Origin: Kitasatospora mediocidica KCTC 9733
GTDB lineage: Bacteria > Actinomycetota > Actinomycetes > Streptomycetales > Streptomycetaceae
NCBI RefSeq assembly: GCF_000744225.1
Contig: NZ_JQLN01000006.1
Location: 124,001-188,000 of the forward strand
Direction of reading: 5' to 3'
Length of the DNA stretch: 64,000 nt
Below, piece by piece: positions 38,723 to 48,490 of the stretch; the stretch's first letter is position 1; each line of letters begins with the position of its first letter. The notes under the pieces are model-generated. The model was not told the DNA's origin, made no database searches, and saw nothing but the letters and a program-made list of their open reading frames with translations. Both the position numbers and the translations under genes were made by a program.

Positions 38723-39955
38723 TCACCCTCGGGCGGACCAGGAGGCGGGCAGGGCGTCGAACCATCCGACGATGCGTTCGTTTCCGCCGCGCGCTCCGGT
38801 CTCCGGACGCAGGACGCGCAGGTCGTCCGTCCGGCGCGCCAGGGCGCCGATGGCCTCCTGGAGATACAGGCGGGCCAGTGCGGCGCCGGGGCAGTGGTGG
38901 GAGCCCATGCCGAAGCCGAGGTGCGGGTTCTCGCCGCGCCGGACGTCGAAGGTGTCCGGGCCGGGGAACGCGCGCTCGTCCCGGTTGGCCGCGCAGAGAG
39001 CGCCCACCGCCACCTCGCCGCGACGGATCAGTGTGCCGCCGATCTCGACGTCCTCGGCGGCGTAGCGGGGGAACGTCGAGGTGCTGTGGAACGGGGTGAA
39101 GCGGATCAACTCCTCGACCGCCGACGGTACGAGATCCGGGCGCAGCCGCAGCCGTTCCAGCTCCGAGCGGTGACAGGCCAGCGCGCACACGAAGTTCGCC
39201 AGCATCAGGACCATGTTCTGCAGCCCCGGCAGCAGGAGCCGCAGGGCCACCGTGACCAACTGGCGGTCGGTCAGGCGCTCCGCGCCTTCGCCGCGGGTCC
39301 GGATCATGGAGCTCAGCAGGTCGTCGGCGGTGCCGGAGGCGGCGGCCGAGCGGGCGGCCGTGAGCTCCGTCAGGTACCGGGTCAGCGCGCGCCGGTCCTG
39401 CTTCTCGGCCTCGGACGGCGGGGTGGTGGTGCCGGCCGCTCCCAGCAGGTAGGCCCGGACGTCGGTCCGATCCGCGGGAGGCACGTCGAGCAGCTCGCAG
39501 ACGACCGCGGCGGCCAGTGGCTTGACGAACGTGGCCATCAGGTCGGTGGGTTGGGGCAGTTCGGACGGTTCGGCGGGGCCCTCGCGGTGGTCCGGACGGT
39601 GGATCAGCTCACCGGCCAGCGTCCGTGCCAGCGGGCGCAGTCGCTCGATCTGCCGGGGCTTGAGGCCCGCCTTGGTCACCCGGGTGACCTGCGCCGGCGA
39701 CAGTGCTGCGGTCGGCGGCGGCTCGGTCGGCTCGGTCGGCTCGGTCGGCGGGGTCAGGTCGAAGCGGGGGTCGGTGAGGAGCCTGCGGACGTCGGCGTAG
39801 CGGGAGCAGAGCCAGGCCGGGCCGAGATCCCCGAGGTCGACCGGGCACAGTCCCTCGGCGTCGCGCAGGGTGGCGTAGCGCGGATCGAGGTGCAGCAGGT
39901 GAGGCTCGCCGAAGGGGTAGGGCTGCACCTCCGGTGTGCGTTCGGGGTACTTCAC
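38723..39955 (-). CDS. Cytochrome P450 paired with a small peptide gene
   Basis: A 410-aa class-I-type bacterial P450. The heme loop GFGMGSHHCPGAALAR gives Cys355, and ExxR is E282-R285. The I-helix (LLLPGLQNMVLM, 243-247) lacks the usual Ala/Gly-Gly-x-x-Thr, so proton delivery is atypical. Such loss is known in P450s that do not carry out plain hydroxylation. The 77-aa peptide gene (39996-40229) is 40 bp upstream in the same direction, the arrangement of P450-modified RiPPs that cross-link Trp, Tyr or His side chains. The peptide link is inference. A Thr/Glu/Pro-rich insertion lies at residues 68-83. Confidence 0.85.
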   Translation of the reverse strand: MKYPERTPEVQPYPFGEPHLLHLDPRYATLRDAEGLCPVDLGDLGPAWLCSRYADVRRLLTDPRFDLTPPTEPTEPTEPPPTAALSPAQVTRVTKAGLKPRQIERLRPLARTLAGELIHRPDHREGPAEPSELPQPTDLMATFVKPLAAAVVCELLDVPPADRTDVRAYLLGAAGTTTPPSEAEKQDRRALTRYLTELTAARSAAASGTADDLLSSMIRTRGEGAERLTDRQLVTVALRLLLPGLQNMVLMLANFVCALACHRSELERLRLRPDLVPSAVEELIRFTPFHSTSTFPRYAAEDVEIGGTLIRRGEVAVGALCAANRDERAFPGPDTFDVRRGENPHLGFGMGSHHCPGAALARLYLQEAIGALARRTDDLRVLRPETGARGGNERIVGWFDALPASWSARG

Positions 39956-39995
39956 CGGGCGGTTCCTCTCTGCGGCGCGGGATCGGGGATCGGGG

Positions 39996-40229
39996 TCAGG
40001 CGTGCTGCGGGATGCTCTCCCAGCCGAAGCCGTCGCCCGCGGGGGTGGTCGGCGTGCCGGTCGCGGTCGCGGTGGCTGTGGCGGTCGTGCCGTCCGCGGA
40101 GGGGGAGGCGGCGGAGGCGTCGAGGTGGAGCGCGACGCCCGTCAGGCTGAGGACGGCGGCGATCGCGACGCCGGCGACGGCCGACCGGATGGTCGTGGAA
40201 CCGGCCTTGGTGGCAATGGACTTGGACAT
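39996..40229 (-). CDS. 77-aa peptide, candidate precursor for the adjacent P450
   Basis: A 77-aa peptide with a hydrophobic stretch (residues 16-36), an Ala-Ser-Ala region at about 38-42, a Thr/Ala/Pro-rich middle (45-63) and a C-terminus with Trp70, Phe68 and His76 (core-like GDGFGWESIPQHA). ATG 40229 has CGGAGG at proper spacing. The next gene in the same direction is a P450. It may be a leader-core RiPP precursor whose aromatic C-terminus is cross-linked, or a small secreted protein with a signal peptide. Both fit the hydrophobic N-terminal half. Confidence 0.6.
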   Translation of the reverse strand: MSKSIATKAGSTTIRSAVAGVAIAAVLSLTGVALHLDASAASPSADGTTATATATATGTPTTPAGDGFGWESIPQHA

Positions 40230-40481: not shown

Positions 40482-40610
40482 ATGTCTGCGTTCGAGGAAC
40501 TCGAGAACCTGGTCACGACGATGGCCGCAGCCGAGCCGGAGGACAACGACGAGGACGGCGTCGGCGACGTGGCGTGGCGCATCTCGTACTCGACCTTCTA
40601 CAACTCCTAG
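40482..40610 (+). CDS. 42-aa acidic peptide, candidate RiPP precursor
   Basis: A 42-aa peptide: an N-terminal helix-like half (MSAFEELENLVTTMAAAE), a very acidic run (PEDNDEDGVGD, 19-29) and a C-terminus with Trp32, Arg33, Tyr36, Ser35/37, Thr38, Phe39 and Tyr40. An acidic leader plus a Ser/Thr/Tyr-rich core of about 12 residues is the layout of many RiPP precursors. An AAGGAGA site lies 7 bases before ATG 40482. It is followed by a strong hairpin and by four co-directional genes (M29-like, PhyH-type hydroxylase, MFS, 89-aa). No class of known precursor is recognised. Confidence 0.65.
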   Translation: MSAFEELENLVTTMAAAEPEDNDEDGVGDVAWRISYSTFYNS

Positions 40611-40620
40611 TACCCGCAAG

Positions 40621-40686
40621 GCAGGGGCACTCGTCGCACCGTGCGGGAAGGTCCTCCCTTCCCGCCCGGGCGAGGAGTGCCCCTGC
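40621..40686 (+). promoter_or_regulatory. Nested hairpin between the peptide gene and its downstream operon
   Basis: Outer arms 40621-40637 and 40670-40686 pair over 17 positions with one mismatch. Inside is a perfect 9-bp hairpin, GCGGGAAGG (40643-40651) with CCTTCCCGC (40657-40665), and loop TCCTC. It can act as a partial terminator or 3' stabiliser, giving much peptide mRNA and less of the enzyme genes, as in many precursor-first RiPP operons. The structure is direct; the role is inference. Confidence 0.6.
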
Positions 40687-40712
40687 TTCGTCCGATCCCG
40701 AGGAGCTCGGCC

Positions 40713-41873
40713 ATGAACTTCGTCATTCCGGACGAGAAGGTGCAGCAGGGCATCAAGGTCCTGTTGGACGACTACGTCCTGATCGAGAGCACCGACACCT
40801 TCGTCATCGCCTACACCCCGGACAGCCGTGAACCGGCGGCCTGGCTGGCCCTCGCGCTCAAGCACCGGGGCTTCCCGGCCGGGATCGTCGCGATGCGCAA
40901 GCTCCAGGACCCGGAGTTCGCCGGGCGTTTCGAGGCCGCGCTCCCCGACCCGCAGACGCTGCCGGGGCGTCTGGTCGTCCTCACGCTGGAGCGCGACACC
41001 ATGTCGCACTTCAACGTCTTCGAGGCCGCGATGCGGAAGTTCGGCGGCGAGCGCACGATGATCCTGCGGATCATCAGTGCTTCCACCGCGTTCTTCGCCA
41101 AGTCCCTCAACCTCGCGCCCGCTCAACTGAGCCGGTTCAACGCGACGTTGCTGGACCGGGTGAAGCCGGCCCGCAAGGTGCGGATCACCAGCCGCGGCGG
41201 TACCGACCTGACCGTCGAGCTCGACTCGGAGCGCTACCACTGGATCAGCAACCGGGGCGTCTGGCGGCCCGGCGGCTTCACGATCCTGCCGGCCGGCGAG
41301 ATCGCGACCTTCCCGGTCACGGTCGACGGTGTGCTGGTCGCCGACGGCGCGTTCAACGCCAACATCATCACGCCGCTCAACGCCAGCCTGGCCGCCAACC
41401 CGGTCCGGGTGGAGATCAAGAACGGCTGTGCGGTCAGCCTCAGTTGCGCCGACCCGCAGCTCGACGAGATGTTCCAGCTGTGCCTGAAGAGCCCCTACGG
41501 CCGCAACGTCGGAGAGTTCGGGCTCGGGACCAACCGCGGCATCGACGAGTTCATCACCGCCAACTCGCACATCAACGAACGGCGTTGCGGCGTCCACCTG
41601 GGATTCGGGCAGCACAACCAGCGGCTGAGCCGGGTCCCGTACGTCGCCGAGGTCCACCTCGACCTGATCACCGACGGCGCGCTGGTCTGGGTCGACGACG
41701 ACCCGGTGCCGATCGACCTGGAGAGCTTCGCCGCCACCGACGTGCAGCACCCGGCCGACGCCCTCGACGAGGACATCACCGGTGACTGCTGCGGCCTGGG
41801 CTACGGTCAACTCGAAGGCCTGGCCTGCGCGGTGCCCGCCGGCTCCGACATCCCGGAGAGGATCCAGCGATGA
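40713..41873 (+). CDS. M29-like aminopeptidase-family protein in the peptide operon
   Basis: A 386-aa protein whose C-terminal two thirds resemble M29 (aminopeptidase T/AmpS) metallopeptidases. All expected metal ligands are in place: E196 (PAGE), E268 (VGEFGLGTN), H295 (GVHLGFG) and H315-x-D317 (VHLDL). GGTDLTVELDSERYHWISN (162-180) is the GTDL block. The N-terminal 150 residues differ from classical M29 enzymes. Position straight after a candidate precursor suggests it trims or binds the peptide; it could also be recruited for another reaction. It overlaps the next gene (ATGA). ATG 40713 has GAGGAGC 11 bases upstream. Confidence 0.75.
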   Translation: MNFVIPDEKVQQGIKVLLDDYVLIESTDTFVIAYTPDSREPAAWLALALKHRGFPAGIVAMRKLQDPEFAGRFEAALPDPQTLPGRLVVLTLERDTMSHFNVFEAAMRKFGGERTMILRIISASTAFFAKSLNLAPAQLSRFNATLLDRVKPARKVRITSRGGTDLTVELDSERYHWISNRGVWRPGGFTILPAGEIATFPVTVDGVLVADGAFNANIITPLNASLAANPVRVEIKNGCAVSLSCADPQLDEMFQLCLKSPYGRNVGEFGLGTNRGIDEFITANSHINERRCGVHLGFGQHNQRLSRVPYVAEVHLDLITDGALVWVDDDPVPIDLESFAATDVQHPADALDEDITGDCCGLGYGQLEGLACAVPAGSDIPERIQR

Positions 41874-42712
41874 GGACCACCGAGCCGGCCACGGCGGATG
41901 GTGCTCTGGCGGACGACGCCGCGACGCTCGCCCGGCGGGGCTATGTGATCCTGCGCGGGATCCTGGACGCCGACGAGGTCCGGCGGGCCCGCGCCCTGTG
42001 CACCGGACACCTCACGGGCGAGGGCTCGCAGGAGATGCTGACCAGCGACTTCCTGGCCGACGACTTCCTCGCCGGGATCGTGCTGCGCGAGCGCGTGGTG
42101 CGGGCCGTCAAGGTGCTGCTGGGCGAGGACCGGCCGGTGCTCTACCCGAACTGCACCGCGCGCAAGAACGTCTACGTCCCGTGGCACGTGGACGCGACGT
42201 TCGTCGGACCGACCGCCGGTTACGTCTGGGAGCCCGGCTTCGCGCACGTCCAGTGCGGCCTGTACCTCCAGGACAACGACCCGGTCGGCGGGGGCGGCAT
42301 CGACGTGGTGCGTGCCTCGCACCTGATGTCCTTCGACGGATACGGCACCACCGAACCGGAGTTCGACATCCCGGCGCGCACGGTGGGCGAGTCCGACCTG
42401 CGCGAGCGGGTCGACACCAGGGCCGGCGACGTCGTGGTCTGGGACGCTCGTCTGATGCACACCAGCACGCCGGTCCTGCGGGAGCCGGGCCGGGAGAAGT
42501 TCGGGGTCTTCTTCAGCTACGCCCGCCCGCACGCGCGCGACAACCACCGGTTCCTGACGCAGATCGCGGTGGACTCGATGCGCACCATGAACGGCGTCTC
42601 GCGGCGGATCCCCCGGCTCGCCGAGATCGCCCGGATGCGCTACCCGGAGAGCTTCCCGGCCTGGTTCGCCAAGGAGGCCGCCGACGCGGCCGTCCAGATC
42701 GTCACGCTGTGA
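41870..42712 (+). CDS. Phytanoyl-CoA dioxygenase (PhyH)-family iron/2-oxoglutarate hydroxylase
   Basis: A 280-aa double-stranded beta-helix oxygenase. The facial triad is H106-x-D108 (PWHVDATF) with H197 (RLMHTST). R208 in EPGREKFG is a fair candidate for binding 2-oxoglutarate. PhyH enzymes hydroxylate, halogenate or epimerise small molecules and carrier- or peptide-bound residues. Here the operon suggests hydroxylation of the 42-aa peptide, which is inference. It overlaps the M29-like gene by 4 bp and is followed after 13 bp by the MFS gene. Confidence 0.85.
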   Translation: MRTTEPATADGALADDAATLARRGYVILRGILDADEVRRARALCTGHLTGEGSQEMLTSDFLADDFLAGIVLRERVVRAVKVLLGEDRPVLYPNCTARKNVYVPWHVDATFVGPTAGYVWEPGFAHVQCGLYLQDNDPVGGGGIDVVRASHLMSFDGYGTTEPEFDIPARTVGESDLRERVDTRAGDVVVWDARLMHTSTPVLREPGREKFGVFFSYARPHARDNHRFLTQIAVDSMRTMNGVSRRIPRLAEIARMRYPESFPAWFAKEAADAAVQIVTL

Positions 42713-42725
42713 AGGGGCGAGCGAC

Positions 42726-44024
42726 TTGACATCGACGACACTGGCCGCCGGCGGGGACGAGCAGACCTCGCAGTCGCCGGCGGCCTTCCCGGACGGTCGG
42801 TTCCGCGCGCTGTGGGCCGCCACCGGCCTGTCCCAGGTCGGCTCGGCGGTCAGCAACGTCACGATTCCGGTCTGTGCGGCGGTCACGCTGGGCGCCTCGG
42901 CCCTGGAGATGACCTGGCTGGCGGTGATCGAGCTGCTCCCGTCGCTGCTGATCAGGATTCCGGCGGCCTCGTGGTCCGACGGGCTGCGCCGTCCGCGCGC
43001 GCCGGTGATGGCGGCGTGCAACCTGGTGCAGGCCGCCGTCATGGGGTTGGTGCCGCTGCTGTGGTGGCTGGGGGCGCTGAACATCGTGCTGCTGCTGGTG
43101 CTGGCCGCCGTGGCCTCGTTCGCGCTCGGCGTGTACTCCGCGCTGGCCAGTCCGCTGCTGGTGCAGATCGTGCCGAAGGCGCACCTGGTGGAGGCCAACG
43201 GCAAGATGTCGGCGACCCGGAGTGTGGCGGACATCAGCGGGCCCGCGCTCGGCGGGGCGCTGCTCGCGCGGATCGCGGCGCCGTCGGTGGTGCTGGTGGA
43301 CGCGCTGTCGTTCCTGCTGTCCGCCGCCCTGCTGAGCAGAGTGCGGACCGAAAAGGTGGCCCAGGGTGCCACCACAGGCGCCCCGAAAGCGGCGAAGGAG
43401 AGGCTCGGCGCCGCCGCGAACGTGCGGCTGGCACGCGCGATGGCGCGACAGTCCGGTGTCCGGGCCATGGTGGCCGTGGCGTTCGTCAACGGTCTCACGC
43501 AGCCGGTGCTGGTGCTCTTCCTGGTGCGGTCCGTCCACATGCGGCCGTCGTTGATCGGTTCGCTGCTGGCCTTCGGCGCCGTCGGCGGGGTGGCCGGCGG
43601 CATGCTCGTCGGGCGGGCGCAGAAGTCGCTGGGCTCGGGCCGGACGGTGGCCGTGGGCGCCGCCGCCAGCCTGCTGTCGCTCGCGCTGCTCCCCTTCGCG
43701 TCGGCCGGGCCGAGCGCGATGGCCGGGCTGGTGCTGCTGGAACTCGCCGGGAGCTTCGGCGGGACGCTGCTGGTCGCCACGGTCTTCGGCGGCCTCCAGG
43801 CGGCGGCGCCGCGCGAGCGGATCGCGCAGGTGATGGCGATGGCCTGGGTGCAGTTGCAGGCCGCCGGCCTGATCGGGGTCCCGATCGGTGGGGCGCTGGC
43901 CATCGGGTACGGAACGCGGTGGGCGATGGTCGTCGCGTTCGCGGTGCTGGCCCTCGCCCTCGGCCCGCAGCTGGTCCGCTGGGCCCTGACGCGGTGGGCT
44001 CCGGACCCGCCGATCGCGATGTGA
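42726..44024 (+). CDS. MFS efflux transporter of the peptide operon
   Basis: A 432-aa MFS (MFS_3/enterobactin-exporter-like) transporter with 12 predicted helices. The first motif region is FRALWAATGLSQVGSAVSNVTIPVCA (~28-53). The loop 2-3 signature is degenerate (SWSDGLRRPRAP), as is typical of this subfamily. TTG 42726 is preceded by AAGGGGCGAG. Its place suggests export of the operon's product and self-protection. Confidence 0.87.
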   Translation: MTSTTLAAGGDEQTSQSPAAFPDGRFRALWAATGLSQVGSAVSNVTIPVCAAVTLGASALEMTWLAVIELLPSLLIRIPAASWSDGLRRPRAPVMAACNLVQAAVMGLVPLLWWLGALNIVLLLVLAAVASFALGVYSALASPLLVQIVPKAHLVEANGKMSATRSVADISGPALGGALLARIAAPSVVLVDALSFLLSAALLSRVRTEKVAQGATTGAPKAAKERLGAAANVRLARAMARQSGVRAMVAVAFVNGLTQPVLVLFLVRSVHMRPSLIGSLLAFGAVGGVAGGMLVGRAQKSLGSGRTVAVGAAASLLSLALLPFASAGPSAMAGLVLLELAGSFGGTLLVATVFGGLQAAAPRERIAQVMAMAWVQLQAAGLIGVPIGGALAIGYGTRWAMVVAFAVLALALGPQLVRWALTRWAPDPPIAM

Positions 44025-44040
44025 GCGGACGGGGCGTCTG

Positions 44041-44310
44041 ATGTACCTGACCAAGACCACGGTGGACACGCCCGGCGACGGGCCGCAGTCCGCGGAGCAG
44101 CTGCACCGGCAACTGCTCCGCAGCACGGCGGGCAGCGACAGCCTGCAGCACGCGCATATCGAGGTCCATCCGGACTTCGTGGTGTTCAGCCTCTACGTAC
44201 AGGCCCACGACCTGCTGGACGCGGCGCGGGTGGCCGAGCAGCTCTGCTGCCGGACCATGGCCAGCGCCTGCCACGGCTGGGCCGTCCGCTCCACCGAGGT
44301 GGGCCCCTGA
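44041..44310 (+). CDS. Hypothetical 89-aa protein of the peptide operon
   Basis: An 89-aa soluble protein (MYLTKTTVDTPGDGPQ ...) with a beta-strand-like HAHIEVHPDFVVFSLYVQA stretch at residues 38-56, a Cys pair CC (~69-70) and a further Cys in ACHGWAV. ATG 44041 lies 16 bp after the MFS stop, so it belongs to the operon. I recognise no family. Size and place would suit a peptide-recognition or scaffold protein, but nothing proves that. Confidence 0.55.
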   Translation: MYLTKTTVDTPGDGPQSAEQLHRQLLRSTAGSDSLQHAHIEVHPDFVVFSLYVQAHDLLDAARVAEQLCCRTMASACHGWAVRSTEVGP

Positions 44311-44334: not shown

Positions 44335-45351
44335 CTATTCGAGGTCGTCCGGGGTGATCCAGGCCCGCGAGACGGCCTGGGCTCCGGCCTGGAATCTGCT
44401 GCGTGCGCCTAGCCTGGTGTGCAGGTCCGCCGCGACCCGGCGGGCCGTGCGGACCGAGACGCCCAGCTGGCGGGCGATGGCTTCGTCGGTCAGCCCTGCT
44501 GCCAGCAGCCGCAGGACCTGCCGCTCCTGGCTGGACAGCCCGTCGTCGTCGCGACGGCGACAGGCGCCGAGCGCCGTCGCGGAGCGCCAGACCGAGTTGA
44601 ACAGGGCGGTCAGTGCCGTGATGACGCCGACACTGGAGATCACGATCGCCGCCGTGCCGCCCTCGGCCGGCTCGAGCGGCACCACCGCCACCCGGCGGTC
44701 CACGACGAGCATCCGCAGCGGCAGCGACGCGGTGGTGCGGACCTCACTGCCGAGCCCGCCGAGCCACTGGGCGTACTCCAGGGTCGGCTTGTGGTTGCGC
44801 ACGCTGTCCTGGTAGACCGTGCGGACCCGCACCCCGCGTTCGATCGCCTCGGCGTCCAGCACCCGGCTGGCGTTGAGGTTCTCCTCGGACTGGGCACCGC
44901 CCGGCATGAACGAGCAGGCCTCCCACTCGCAGGAGCGCGCGAGCCGGCTCAGCCGGTCGCGGATGGCGTCGATGCCGGACAGGCGCTCGATCTCGGAGTT
45001 CGCGTCCGCGTCCGAGGCGGAGTCGGCCGGCCGGCTCTCGGCGCGCTCGGCCAGCAGGAGGGACAGCGCGGCCGTGCCCTCCTCGATCTGCTGGTGCCGA
45101 CGGGCCATCTCGGCCTGCTGACGGGCGACCAGGGCGGAGAGGCCGACCTCGGGACGTACGGCCTTCGGCCCGGGCCGGCCCGGGAACACCTGGAGCAGTG
45201 AGATACCGGTGAGCTCGTCGAGCGCGACGCGTAACTGGTCGTGGTCGACGTGGAGCCGGCGGGAGAGCACGTCGAGGCCCTCGTCCGGGTGTTGAAGCAT
45301 CGCAAGGTACACAGACTCGGCGAGGCTGCTCAGCCCAAGCCCTTGGAACAT
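44335..45351 (-). CDS. LuxR-type regulator with TrmB-like N-terminal domain
   Basis: A 338-aa regulator. The first 75 residues are a TrmB-like winged helix (LAESVYLAMLQHPDEGLDVLSRRLHVDHDQLRVALDEL). A PLD-like sensor region follows, and the C-terminus is a LuxR helix-turn-helix (LSSQERQVLRLLAAGLTDEAIARQLGVSVRTARRVAADL, ~275-315). Such proteins are common pathway-specific regulators in Streptomyces. ATG 45351 is preceded by GGGAG at 6 bases. It converges on the peptide operon and is divergent from the M16 peptidase pair. Confidence 0.87.
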   Translation of the reverse strand: MFQGLGLSSLAESVYLAMLQHPDEGLDVLSRRLHVDHDQLRVALDELTGISLLQVFPGRPGPKAVRPEVGLSALVARQQAEMARRHQQIEEGTAALSLLLAERAESRPADSASDADANSEIERLSGIDAIRDRLSRLARSCEWEACSFMPGGAQSEENLNASRVLDAEAIERGVRVRTVYQDSVRNHKPTLEYAQWLGGLGSEVRTTASLPLRMLVVDRRVAVVPLEPAEGGTAAIVISSVGVITALTALFNSVWRSATALGACRRRDDDGLSSQERQVLRLLAAGLTDEAIARQLGVSVRTARRVAADLHTRLGARSRFQAGAQAVSRAWITPDDLE

Positions 45352-45803
45352 TGGCCACTCCCTCTGTCGCGGTTCGGCGACGGACTTTGGCGCACGTCTC
45401 CTCCCGGTTCTGCTCATGTAGTCGCCACATCTGTCAACTGGTCTTCACAGAGTGACACTTGACGTGCTGTCCGACAAGGGAGCCGGTCGGGACACCCGTC
45501 GGTGATCGCAGCGCCGGCGGTCGGGGCGGCGGGTGCTGCGAGATGGGTCCGGTGGTCGGAGATCGCTCGAACTACGGTGGATTGTAGTGGAGTTCGGCTG
45601 GAGCGATACTCCTGTGCGGTGGCGGATGGCGCCGCTGGGCCGCGGCGGGCCGCGTCAGCCCGAGGGGGTGGCCGAAAGCTGCACCGGAGCGCGGCGGCCC
45701 GAACCGGCCCGCTTCCGCACGTCCGGCCGCTTTCGCCCGCCCGCCCGGGCTGACCGCAACTGACCACTTCCGGCCGACGCCTCGCGCCGCGTATCCATGG
45801 GGC
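45352..45803. other. Regulatory region between the LuxR gene and M16 peptidase genes
   Basis: A 452-bp gene-free stretch. GTCAA at 45433 faces TTGAC at 45459 as a weak dyad (minus-strand TTGACA at 45432-45437). No firm promoter can be assigned. Its size and divergent setting suggest shared control. Confidence 0.35.
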
Positions 45804-47147
45804 ATGGCACTGACGACGCATACCAGGTCCCGGTCCGGCTCCGGGTCCGGCTCCCCGGGCCCGAGGCAGCGGGTCGTCGAGCGCGGAACGCTCGGCAACG
45901 GACTGCGGCTGGTGCTGAGCCCGGACCGGCACGCCCTCGTCGCGGCCGTCGCGGTCGTCTACGACGTGGGGACGCGGACCGAGCCCGAGGGCCGCTCGGG
46001 GTTCGCCCACCTCTTCGAACACCTCATGTTCCAGGGCTCGGTGGGTCTGCGGAACGCCGCGTACACCCGGCACGTGGAGCGGTCCGGCGGCACCTTCCGC
46101 GGCTCCACGCACCTCGACCTCACCCAGTACGGCGAGGTCGCCCCCGCCAACGCCCTGCAGCGGATGCTCTATCTGGAGTCCGACCGGATGCGCGGCCTGC
46201 GACTCACCGAGGCGAACCTCGCCAACCAGATCTCGGTGGTCAAGGAGGAGATCCGGGCCAACGTCCTGAGCCGGCCGTACGGCGCTCTGCCCTGGCCCCG
46301 GCTGCCGTCGCTGATGTTCGACACCTTCCCCAACACCCATGACGGCCGGGGCTCGTTCGCCGATCTGGAGCGGGCTACCCGTTCGGAGGCAGCCGACTTC
46401 TTCGACCGCTACTACGCCCCGGGCAACGCCGTGCTGTGCGTCTGCGGAGACTTCGACCCCGATCGCGCGCGCCGGGGCATCGAGCGCTACTTCGGCGACA
46501 TCCCGGCCCGACCGGTGCCCGCCCCCGCCGACGTCCGCGAGCCCGAGCGGGCCGGTGAGCGCCGCGCATGCTACCGGGACCCGCTGGCACCCCGGCCGGC
46601 GATCGCCTGGGGCTGGCGGGTGCCTGATCCGATCGAAGACCTCGACGGGTTCCTGCCCTACCTGCTGCTGGCCGGTCTGCTGGCCGGCCCGGACACCTCC
46701 CGCCTGGTCCGGCGCCTGGTCTCGGTGGACCGGACGGCGACGTCGGTCACCGGCCGGGTCGGCTTCCTCGGCGACCCGTTCGCCCTGCGTGACCCGACGG
46801 CCCTGGTGTTCCAGGCCCGGCTGCCGGCCGACGGTGACCCGTGGCGGCTCCTGGACGCCGTCGACGAGGAGATCGAGCGACTCGCCCTGGACGGCCCCGA
46901 CCCGGCCGAACTCGACGGCGTCGCCGCACGGGTGGTCGTCAAGCAATTGGAGCGCACCGACTCGGCGCTGGGCCGCGCCGAACGGCTGGCCGTCTTCGAG
47001 TTGCAACGCGACGACCCGCTCCTCCTCGGCGAACTGCCGCGCCTGCTCGGCTCGGTGGGAGCGGACGCGGTGCGCGAGGCGGCCGGGCGGCTGACCCCGG
47101 ACCGGCGCTCGGCCATCGAGGTCGTGCCCGGGGCCGGAACCCGGTGA
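45804..47147 (+). CDS. M16 zinc peptidase, catalytic subunit
   Basis: A 447-aa M16B (pitrilysin-fold) peptidase. The inverted zinc motif is H69-L-F-E-H73 (HLFEHLMF), with the third ligand E149 (VVKEEIRAN) at the expected 76-residue spacing. It has two homologous halves, as in the family. Its GTG-overlap partner 47144-48490 lacks the motif, so the two should form a heterodimer like other M16B pairs that cut short peptides. Next to the RiPP-like operon it is a good candidate for leader removal; that is inference. Confidence 0.92.
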   Translation: MALTTHTRSRSGSGSGSPGPRQRVVERGTLGNGLRLVLSPDRHALVAAVAVVYDVGTRTEPEGRSGFAHLFEHLMFQGSVGLRNAAYTRHVERSGGTFRGSTHLDLTQYGEVAPANALQRMLYLESDRMRGLRLTEANLANQISVVKEEIRANVLSRPYGALPWPRLPSLMFDTFPNTHDGRGSFADLERATRSEAADFFDRYYAPGNAVLCVCGDFDPDRARRGIERYFGDIPARPVPAPADVREPERAGERRACYRDPLAPRPAIAWGWRVPDPIEDLDGFLPYLLLAGLLAGPDTSRLVRRLVSVDRTATSVTGRVGFLGDPFALRDPTALVFQARLPADGDPWRLLDAVDEEIERLALDGPDPAELDGVAARVVVKQLERTDSALGRAERLAVFELQRDDPLLLGELPRLLGSVGADAVREAAGRLTPDRRSAIEVVPGAGTR

Positions 47148-48490
47148 CCCGGCCACCCGCGCGAAGGCTTCCCACGCGAAGGCTTCCCGCGCTCGGCGCG
47201 GTGCGGCCGGTGCGCGTCCCCGAGCATGTCGAGAGCACGCTGCCCAACGGCCTCAGGGTGCTGGCCGTCCAGCGCCACGGCGAGCCGCTGGCGGAGATCA
47301 GGCTACGGATCCCGTTCGCCGGTGCGGATCCCGCGCCGGCCCGACTACTCGCGCGCACCCTCTTCTCGGGCAGCACGTCCGGGTCGGCGGCCCGGACGGC
47401 AGCGGCCGTCCGGGACCTCGGCGCCACCCTCGGCGTCGAGGTCGACCAGGACCGGTTGCGGATCAGCGGCCGAGCGCCGGTCGGCGCCCTGGACCGGCTG
47501 CTCGCGACGGTGGCCCAGGCCCTCGAAGCGGCCGCCTACCCGCCGTCCGAGGTCGCCACCGCCCGTGCCGCCCTCGCCGACCGGCTGCGCACGGACCGGT
47601 GCGAGCCGGCCCGGCTGGCGGGGGCGGCGCTCGCCGCGCGGATCTATCCCGGCCACCCGTACCGCCTGGACGCGCCCGAGCCCGAGGAGGTGGCCTCGGT
47701 GCAGGCGGGGGAGCTGCGCGCCCTGCACGCGCGGCTGGTCCGGCCGGCCGGCAGCACCCTGGTCGTGGTCGGCGACCTGGATCCGCAGGCCGTCGTCGCG
47801 GTCGCGGCGCGTCAACTGGCGGGCTGGACCGGCGCGGTGAGCGAGTACGCGCTGCCCCCGGTGCCGCCGCTCCGACCCGGTGCGCTGCTCCTGGTCGACC
47901 GGCCCGGGAGCACGCGGTCGTCCCTGCGGATGGCCTTTCCGGCGGTCCCGCGCGGCCACCCGGACAACCCGGCGCTGCGGCTGGCGAACCTCGTCTTCGG
48001 CGGCTACTTCTGCTCGCGCTGGACCGCCAACCTGCGGGAGGACAAGGGCTACACCTACGGCCCGAGCTCGGTGATCCAGGACCGGCGGGCCGGGGCGCGG
48101 CTGATCGCCTCGGCCGAGGTGGCCGCCGAGCACGCGGCCGCGGCACTCGGCGAGACGCTCTACGAACTCGCCAGGATGGCCTGCCTGCCGCCGGGGCAGG
48201 CCGAACTGGACCGCGCGCGCGGCTACACGCTCGGCGCGCTGGTGGTGCTCGGCATGTCCACCCACCGTGACCTCGCCGACCTCGCCGCCGGCCTCGTCGA
48301 CGGCGGACTGCCGCTGACGTACCTGGCCGGGTACGCCGACCGGCTCGCGGCGGCCACCGTCGAGGAGGTGCACGAGGCCGCCCGCCGTTACCTCGCGCCG
48401 TCGGGCGCGGTCACCGTACTGCTCGCCGACGCGCAGCGGGTGGGGCACGCGGTCGCGGCGCTGACGCCGGTGACGGTCCGGCGGGGCTGA
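47144..48490 (+). CDS. M16 peptidase-like, non-catalytic subunit
   Basis: A 448-aa M16-fold protein. The first-half zinc site is absent: residues 67-71 read RLLAR instead of HxxEH. The substrate-binding Arg/Tyr loop of M16B partners is present (LREDKGYTYGPSS, ~301-313). That is the classic split of a catalytic plus substrate-binding pair. GTG 47144 overlaps the previous stop by 4 bp, so the two are coupled. A 13-bp direct repeat (GCGAAGGCTTCCC) at 47160-47187 lengthens its N-terminus. Confidence 0.9.
   Translation: MTRPPARRLPTRRLPALGAVRPVRVPEHVESTLPNGLRVLAVQRHGEPLAEIRLRIPFAGADPAPARLLARTLFSGSTSGSAARTAAAVRDLGATLGVEVDQDRLRISGRAPVGALDRLLATVAQALEAAAYPPSEVATARAALADRLRTDRCEPARLAGAALAARIYPGHPYRLDAPEPEEVASVQAGELRALHARLVRPAGSTLVVVGDLDPQAVVAVAARQLAGWTGAVSEYALPPVPPLRPGALLLVDRPGSTRSSLRMAFPAVPRGHPDNPALRLANLVFGGYFCSRWTANLREDKGYTYGPSSVIQDRRAGARLIASAEVAAEHAAAALGETLYELARMACLPPGQAELDRARGYTLGALVVLGMSTHRDLADLAAGLVDGGLPLTYLAGYADRLAAATVEEVHEAARRYLAPSGAVTVLLADAQRVGHAVAALTPVTVRRG

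Follow-up and report, generated by a model that had tools for sequence, protein, structure and literature searches.

We examined a gene cluster of Kitasatospora mediocidica KCTC 9733 in which a gene for a short peptide precedes genes for an M29-like protein (with the fold of peptidase family M29) and an oxygenase, and which most likely directs the synthesis of a ribosomally synthesized and post-translationally modified peptide (RiPP). The cluster lies in the 64,000 nucleotides (nt) at positions 124,001 to 188,000 of contig NZ_JQLN01000006.1, here called the window; coordinates given without a locus number refer to it. The following features were assigned.

40482–40610, + strand: candidate precursor peptide gene, 42 amino acids (aa), with an acidic leader and a core ending in AWRISYSTFYNS; ribosome site AGGAGA
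40611–40712, + strand: hairpin between the precursor and M29-like genes (RNA z −6.7)
40713–41873, + strand: M29-fold, CgnB/NicX-like protein with E196, E268, E289, H295, H315 and D317 and a conserved E-D...D-C-C tail
41870–42712, + strand: PhyH-type iron/2-oxoglutarate (Fe/2OG) oxygenase, HxD at 106–108 (Pfam PhyH)
42726–44024, + strand: predicted major facilitator superfamily (MFS) exporter (Pfam MFS_1)
44041–44310, + strand: 89-aa ferredoxin-like protein, seen in all five PhyH-type loci
44335–45417, − strand: LuxR-type regulator, kept in the five PhyH-type loci and in Amycolatopsis L020
45804–47147, + strand: M16 metallopeptidase with HxxEH, candidate catalytic subunit of a leader protease
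47144–48490, + strand: M16 partner subunit; the GTG start and its 4-nt overlap with the preceding stop are our reading, the longest open reading frame (ORF) given by the program beginning at 46841

An earlier note, made from the DNA letters alone, had described the peptide, M29-fold, PhyH, MFS and 89-aa genes as a tight RiPP-like operon, and all five are present where it placed them and in that order. Tight packing holds from the M29-like gene through the 89-aa gene, with a 4-nt overlap between the M29-like and PhyH genes, a 13-nt gap between the PhyH and MFS genes, and a 16-nt gap before the 89-aa gene. It does not extend to the peptide gene, which is set apart from the M29-like gene by a 102-nt gap with a strong hairpin. 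The note's cluster also stopped short, as the LuxR-type regulator and the M16 pair lie beyond its end at 44310. Pfam models matched the PhyH protein (41.4 bits, cut-off 22) and the MFS protein (98 bits, cut-off 33.4), and no Pfam family matched the 42-aa peptide or the 89-aa protein. The latter has a ferredoxin-like domain fold with generic Foldseek matches, and its relatives occur in 16 of 394 family genomes, own genome included (13 of them weak).

Nineteen loci came from scanning named genomes with a profile; together with the window and L009 they make up the 21 loci studied. The M29-like protein occurs in actinobacteria (Kitasatospora, Streptomyces, Sphaerisporangium, Catellatospora, Actinoallomurus, Actinokineospora, Amycolatopsis, Nonomuraea, Nocardia and a Frankiaceae metagenome-assembled genome) and in Luteimonas and Pseudomonas brassicacearum. 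It is rare: with the own genome included each time, matches were found in 6 of 394 genomes of the family sample, 2 of 396 of the phylum sample (one a partial match) and 7 of 100 relatives (weak and partial in two cases). Outside the counts stand L037 (4 kb), though it holds peptide, M29-like and MFS genes; L038, presumably the same locus as L022; L010, L011 and other repeats of counted loci; and the weak partial M29 matches L006, L007, L012, L013 and L040. The own genome has a single M29-like match and no second copy, and among the fetched loci only Sphaerisporangium L015 has two, the ligands of both appearing intact by eye. Its second M29-like gene (L015 792–1913, minus strand) lies 9 kb from the first and adjoins a divergent MFS gene and an 89-aa-type gene; a possible second peptide beside it (L015 1964–2173, minus strand) was not counted.

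The feature that recurs most consistently beside the M29-like gene is a short upstream peptide with the core motif W-x-[ILV], present in 20 of the 21 loci. A script with strict criteria for size, ribosome site, motif, leader charge and position within 700 nt upstream of the M29-like gene assigned 17 of them, and three were assigned by eye (L027, L029 and L032, the last with its peptide about 2 kb upstream). Counted by ORF, the strict rule fits 18 of 31 small ORFs upstream of the M29-like gene; in the remainder of these loci it fits 3 of 640, and the Nocardia peptide itself is among the three. With the charge rule dropped, the figures are 20 of 31 versus 37 of 640. The cores include AWRISYSTFYNS in the window, AWSISYTTFRS, QWTISYTTYRN (one of two tandem copies), SWSVSYTTSRPEDVDY, AWYLNTR, AWFVAT, PWRITWDTAAK, PWEITWATRSKDQNQ and VWYIAYRTFIDDQPR, plus close variants. 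The leaders are acidic in all 21 peptides, with net charges from −1 to −10, and none of the peptides contains Cys. Trp is the sole core residue found in every peptide, occurring once in 18 and twice in the three gammaproteobacterial ones; it is never directly preceded by Tyr and is always followed by further residues, 4–14 of them. The acidic leader and aromatic C-terminal core proposed in the earlier note are thus supported across loci. Of the conserved tail it envisaged, Trp with I, L or V two residues on is retained and the whole WRISYSTFYNS tail is not.

Conservation of the peptide was followed in three further ways. In leave-one-group-out profiles, the PhyH, P450 and Nocardia peptides outscored all shuffled sequences, the P450 group narrowly (lowest 13.5 versus 13.2 bits). 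Among 293 sampled genomes of the order, a nine-row peptide profile matched the own genome and no other, with at most 25 candidates scored per genome. The same profile matched 8 of 14 locus genomes, seven of these eight having supplied rows, and always beside the M29-like gene, so that homologues in unrelated contexts, which the earlier note had named as a sign against its reading, did not appear; the Actinoallomurus peptide, absent from the rows, matched with E 5e-13. In the other six of the 14 genomes the profile overlooked the peptides, which are more distant, so that its test is confined to close relatives. Five pairwise comparisons, with the window peptide common to two of them, together gave 13/15/39 changes at the first, second and third codon positions; this pattern, together with conservation across loci, indicates that the peptide gene is more than a chance ORF. 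The start at ATG 40482 is conserved in L009 and L014, and since the script chose an upstream start giving 72 aa, it is not certain. L016 3986–4265 holds two tandem precursor genes that differ in a single core residue (WTIAYTTYRN and WTISYTTYRN).

The window also holds, at 38723–40229 on the minus strand, a 77-aa signal-like peptide ending in DGFGWESIPQHA followed by a cytochrome P450 (P450) gene. A P450 65% identical to it occurs in L009 beside a small ORF ending in DGFGWQVAPRS. This peptide and P450 are probably a separate P450-type RiPP pair next to the main cluster.

The structure model of the M29-like protein (predicted local distance difference test score 89) bears out the fold assigned in the earlier note. 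Its best structural match is NicX (Z 23.7), followed by the aminopeptidases PepS (20.0) and AmpT (19.7), with AmpS also matched, and then by the crocagin proteins CgnB (Z 18.2, root-mean-square deviation 3.7 over 265) and CgnE (18.1); the next row falls to 8.5. By sequence, the window protein scores 20.3 bits on Pfam M29 (PF02073), below the cut-off of 27, and 10 of 21 members match that family at E ≤ 1, the best at 1.1e-5. The plain label "M29 peptidase" was rejected. Six putative metal ligands (E196, E268, E289, H295, H315 and D317) are invariant in all 21 aligned relatives, as is the C-terminal E-D...D-C-C motif. The six correspond to CgnB E161, E252, E274, H280, H291 and D293 in the same order and with similar spacing, a mapping that is our own and was made by order and spacing rather than by superposition. 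Searches by phmmer with the L031 and L029 proteins gave nothing useful.

A candidate oxygenase accompanies the M29-like gene in 16 of the 21 loci, and its type varies. PhyH proteins occur in five (window, L009, L014, L015 and L016), P450s in four (L017–L020) and a JmjC protein with a 318-aa-type protein in six (L021–L025 and L030), while Nocardia L032 has a relative of the 318-aa type together with arginase and methyltransferase genes. The L030 (318 aa) and L032 proteins score 70 bits on the aKG-HExxH peptide β-hydroxylase model (curated cut-off 40); in the other Streptomyces-type loci this label is given by similarity to the L030 protein, and a relative of the aKG-HExxH proteins is also present in Amycolatopsis L020. 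An M29 clade of 10 rows with support 100/98 contains both PhyH and P450 loci, indicating that the oxygenase was exchanged. An MFS gene is found in 17 of 21 loci, several kb away in L015, L020 and L026. In the Nocardia cluster (L032 7789–13140), the arginase-family gene (PF00491) goes with a core that contains Arg (VWYIAYRTF), and its product is possibly a peptide arginase giving ornithine. The gene at L031 8152–9081, beside the M29-like gene, resembles aKG-HExxH hydroxylases by eye but lacks HExxH and an NCBIfam match.

Neighbouring M16 pairs were also seen at L014, L015 and L016, so that with the window four of the five PhyH-type loci have one; in L015 and L016 the pair and the peptide gene are divergent. 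Class III lanthipeptides are known to have their leaders removed by M16 heteromers (PMC10885120), and the pair at 45804–48490 is likely the leader protease of the cluster. The other M16 copy of the own genome shares only 39% identity. In the P450 and JmjC groups, an all-against-all comparison of crude gene calls, with extra clusters unannotated, showed no family common to at least three loci that was recognised as a protease. Relatives of the first M16 subunit, with 51–55% identity, were seen in three genomes without an M29-like match (G092, G083 and G096), where they may serve other peptide clusters.

We consider it reasonably probable that these genes form a RiPP biosynthetic locus that follows the logic of crocagin biosynthesis and leads to a different product. 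The earlier note knew of no described RiPP class with this enzyme pair, a view that does not stand because crocagin biosynthesis combines CgnB (M29 fold, dinuclear metal) with the Fe/2OG oxygenase CgnC; the pairing is already known. In that pathway, as described in PMC10070186, CgnC hydroxylates the core Tyr and Trp, the precursor is bound by CgnB and CgnE, and the zinc site of CgnB is the proposed driver of the elimination that begins ring closure. At the Kitasatospora locus, the M29-like protein would bind the precursor and offer its core to the oxygenase, a PhyH protein here and a P450, JmjC or aKG-HExxH protein elsewhere. This enzyme would oxidise a core residue at or near Trp, probably at the β-carbon, after which the metal site of the M29-like protein would drive elimination or ring closure in the manner proposed for CgnB. 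The M16 pair, in place of CgnD, would cleave off the leader, and the MFS protein would export the product.

Several observations weigh against this assignment. The catalytic role of CgnB is itself only a proposal in PMC10070186. CgnB and CgnE were not matched at E ≤ 10 among PDB sequences with a 21-row profile (the presence of these chains there being unchecked), so the kinship with CgnB is drawn from the fold. No peptide was found beside the M29-like gene of L031; this is the one homologous locus without the short peptide whose absence from homologous operons the earlier note had regarded as the contrary sign. In the leave-one-group-out profiles, the peptides of Streptomyces, the gammaproteobacteria and Nonomuraea failed to outscore shuffled sequences; their assignment depends on position and the W-x-[ILV] core. 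Five of the 21 loci (L026–L029 and L031) have no recognised oxygenase, so coupling to an oxygenase may not be universal. Finally, the L009 flank and the surroundings of the non-PhyH groups yielded no M16 pair.

Our searches of the open literature returned no description of the W-x-[ILV] precursor family; prior listing of some loci in the supplements of Adam et al. 2023 is possible. That paper mentions CgnB homologues that occur as single copies and candidate precursors identified with RiPPER, and no other in the literature searched on M29/aminopeptidase RiPPs concerns M29-type RiPP proteins. That literature offered no studied RiPP pathway built on an M29-fold protein other than crocagin, and the role of the protein there is still a proposal. 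The constant peptide and M29-like protein, the swapped oxygenase and the apparent two-gene versions open this role to direct tests: the two-gene loci could show whether the M29-like protein carries out chemistry by itself, and the oxygenase swaps whether it serves as a general adaptor. For genome mining, a W-x-[ILV] core, an acidic leader and an M29-fold gene together provide a handle.

These two-gene versions bear on an alternative that we regard as possible, if doubtful, in which M29-fold proteins are the class-defining, stand-alone modifiers of a RiPP superclass. They would alter the invariant core Trp by themselves in gammaproteobacterial two-gene cassettes, and the oxygenases, from at least four unrelated families, would be exchangeable add-ons recruited through the M29-fold protein. 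If true, this would mean metal-driven or oxygen-dependent chemistry not seen before. In Luteimonas and Pseudomonas, peptide and M29-like genes stand among unrelated ones (polA, tex, a GFO/IDH oxidoreductase, regulators and an ATP-binding cassette (ABC) exporter). Nineteen neighbour proteins in the L027–L029 flanks, compared with Pfam, included no P450, PhyH, JmjC or other Fe/2OG family in a scan that did not cover every ORF and in which some crude calls may not be genes. It did recover two nicotinamide adenine dinucleotide oxidoreductases and one ABC exporter beside the Pseudomonas M29-like gene. Genome-wide, TIGR04267 proteins are absent from the L027 and L028 genomes, and the L029 genome has one, elsewhere.

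In contrast to the crocagin-type reading that we favour, the M29-like protein might function as an aminopeptidase, shortening the leader from its N-terminal end until it reaches a modified core residue, and leaving the chemistry to the oxygenase. The intact dinuclear-metal ligands, the structural matches to the solved aminopeptidases PepS and AmpT and the weak Pfam M29 match are what such an enzyme would share. We nevertheless hold this to be unlikely: CgnB and CgnE are without aminopeptidase activity as reported in PMC10070186, some loci combine the M29-like protein and a peptide without any recognised oxygenase, and four of five PhyH-type loci have the separate M16 pair. A further, quite improbable reading makes the M29-like protein a NicX-like metallo-oxygenase that modifies Trp, acting alone in two-gene loci, with PhyH, P450 and JmjC proteins serving in later tailoring. 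The ring-cleaving dioxygenase NicX is the best structural match, Trp is the invariant core residue, and Luteimonas and Pseudomonas show no recognised oxygenase beside peptide and M29-like genes. NicX was also the one PDB sequence match of a 5-row profile (E 0.03), but this match vanished with the 21-row profile, which gave three chance-like matches instead. Moreover, NicX has Phe at the position aligned with E196, which makes the site of the M29-like protein look dinuclear, as in CgnB or the aminopeptidases.

The intergenic hairpin, which reached z ≤ −2 in 12 of 14 folded loci (out of 20 peptide-bearing ones; the gap was covered only in part for L009 and L019), is a probable stoichiometry or attenuation element. 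That the short ORF and hairpin form a regulatory leader (attenuator), or that the ORF encodes a signal peptide rather than a substrate, is very improbable despite this recurrent structure, and the attenuator was rejected because leader and core are conserved as amino-acid sequence with a third-position bias, one or two Trp per peptide are few for a Trp attenuator, Catellatospora has near-identical tandem copies, and the peptides are associated with a peptide β-hydroxylase family.

The crocagin-type reading can be set against four known systems. The aKG-HExxH peptide β-hydroxylase RiPPs (TIGR04267; PflC and PosC in PMC12636437) have family proteins in common with the Streptomyces, Amycolatopsis and Nocardia loci; they differ in precursors and partners, and the window's own cluster has no such protein, the own genome carrying two elsewhere. 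Peptidase family M29 (AmpT, AmpS and PepS) shares fold and metal ligands, but the window protein falls under the Pfam cut-off, has about 16% identity in structural alignment, adjoins a precursor-like peptide in 20 of 21 loci and bears the additional conserved DCC tail. NicX, a 2,5-dihydroxypyridine dioxygenase, is the closest in fold and differs in gene context and in the Phe at the ligand position E196; it has a mononuclear iron site without the peptidase Glu.

The nearest in overall logic is the pathway to the tetracyclic pyrroloindoline crocagin (CgnA, CgnB, CgnC and CgnE of Chondromyces crocatus; PMC10070186). The two have in common a short precursor, an M29-fold, dinuclear-metal, peptide-binding protein paired with an Fe/2OG oxygenase, Trp in the core and leader removal by a separate hydrolase, the last presumed for Kitasatospora. 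The adjacent PhyH protein of the window resembles CgnC in being of the Fe/2OG oxygenase type. In five of 21 loci (L009, L014, L016, L026 and L032), though not in the window, a methyltransferase gene of one family is at most 7 kb away from the M29-like gene, recalling the place of CgnL in crocagin biosynthesis. No carbamoyl- or glycosyltransferase is among the annotated cluster genes here, and no sequence match to CgnB was found. The oxygenase type varies between loci, and an M16 pair stands in for CgnD. Whereas crocagin has a basic leader, a core ending in Tyr-Trp, and CgnB together with the metal-deficient CgnE, the Kitasatospora cluster has an acidic leader, no Tyr-Trp, residues following Trp and one M29 copy with an intact site; on the reading that we favour, its product must therefore differ from crocagin.

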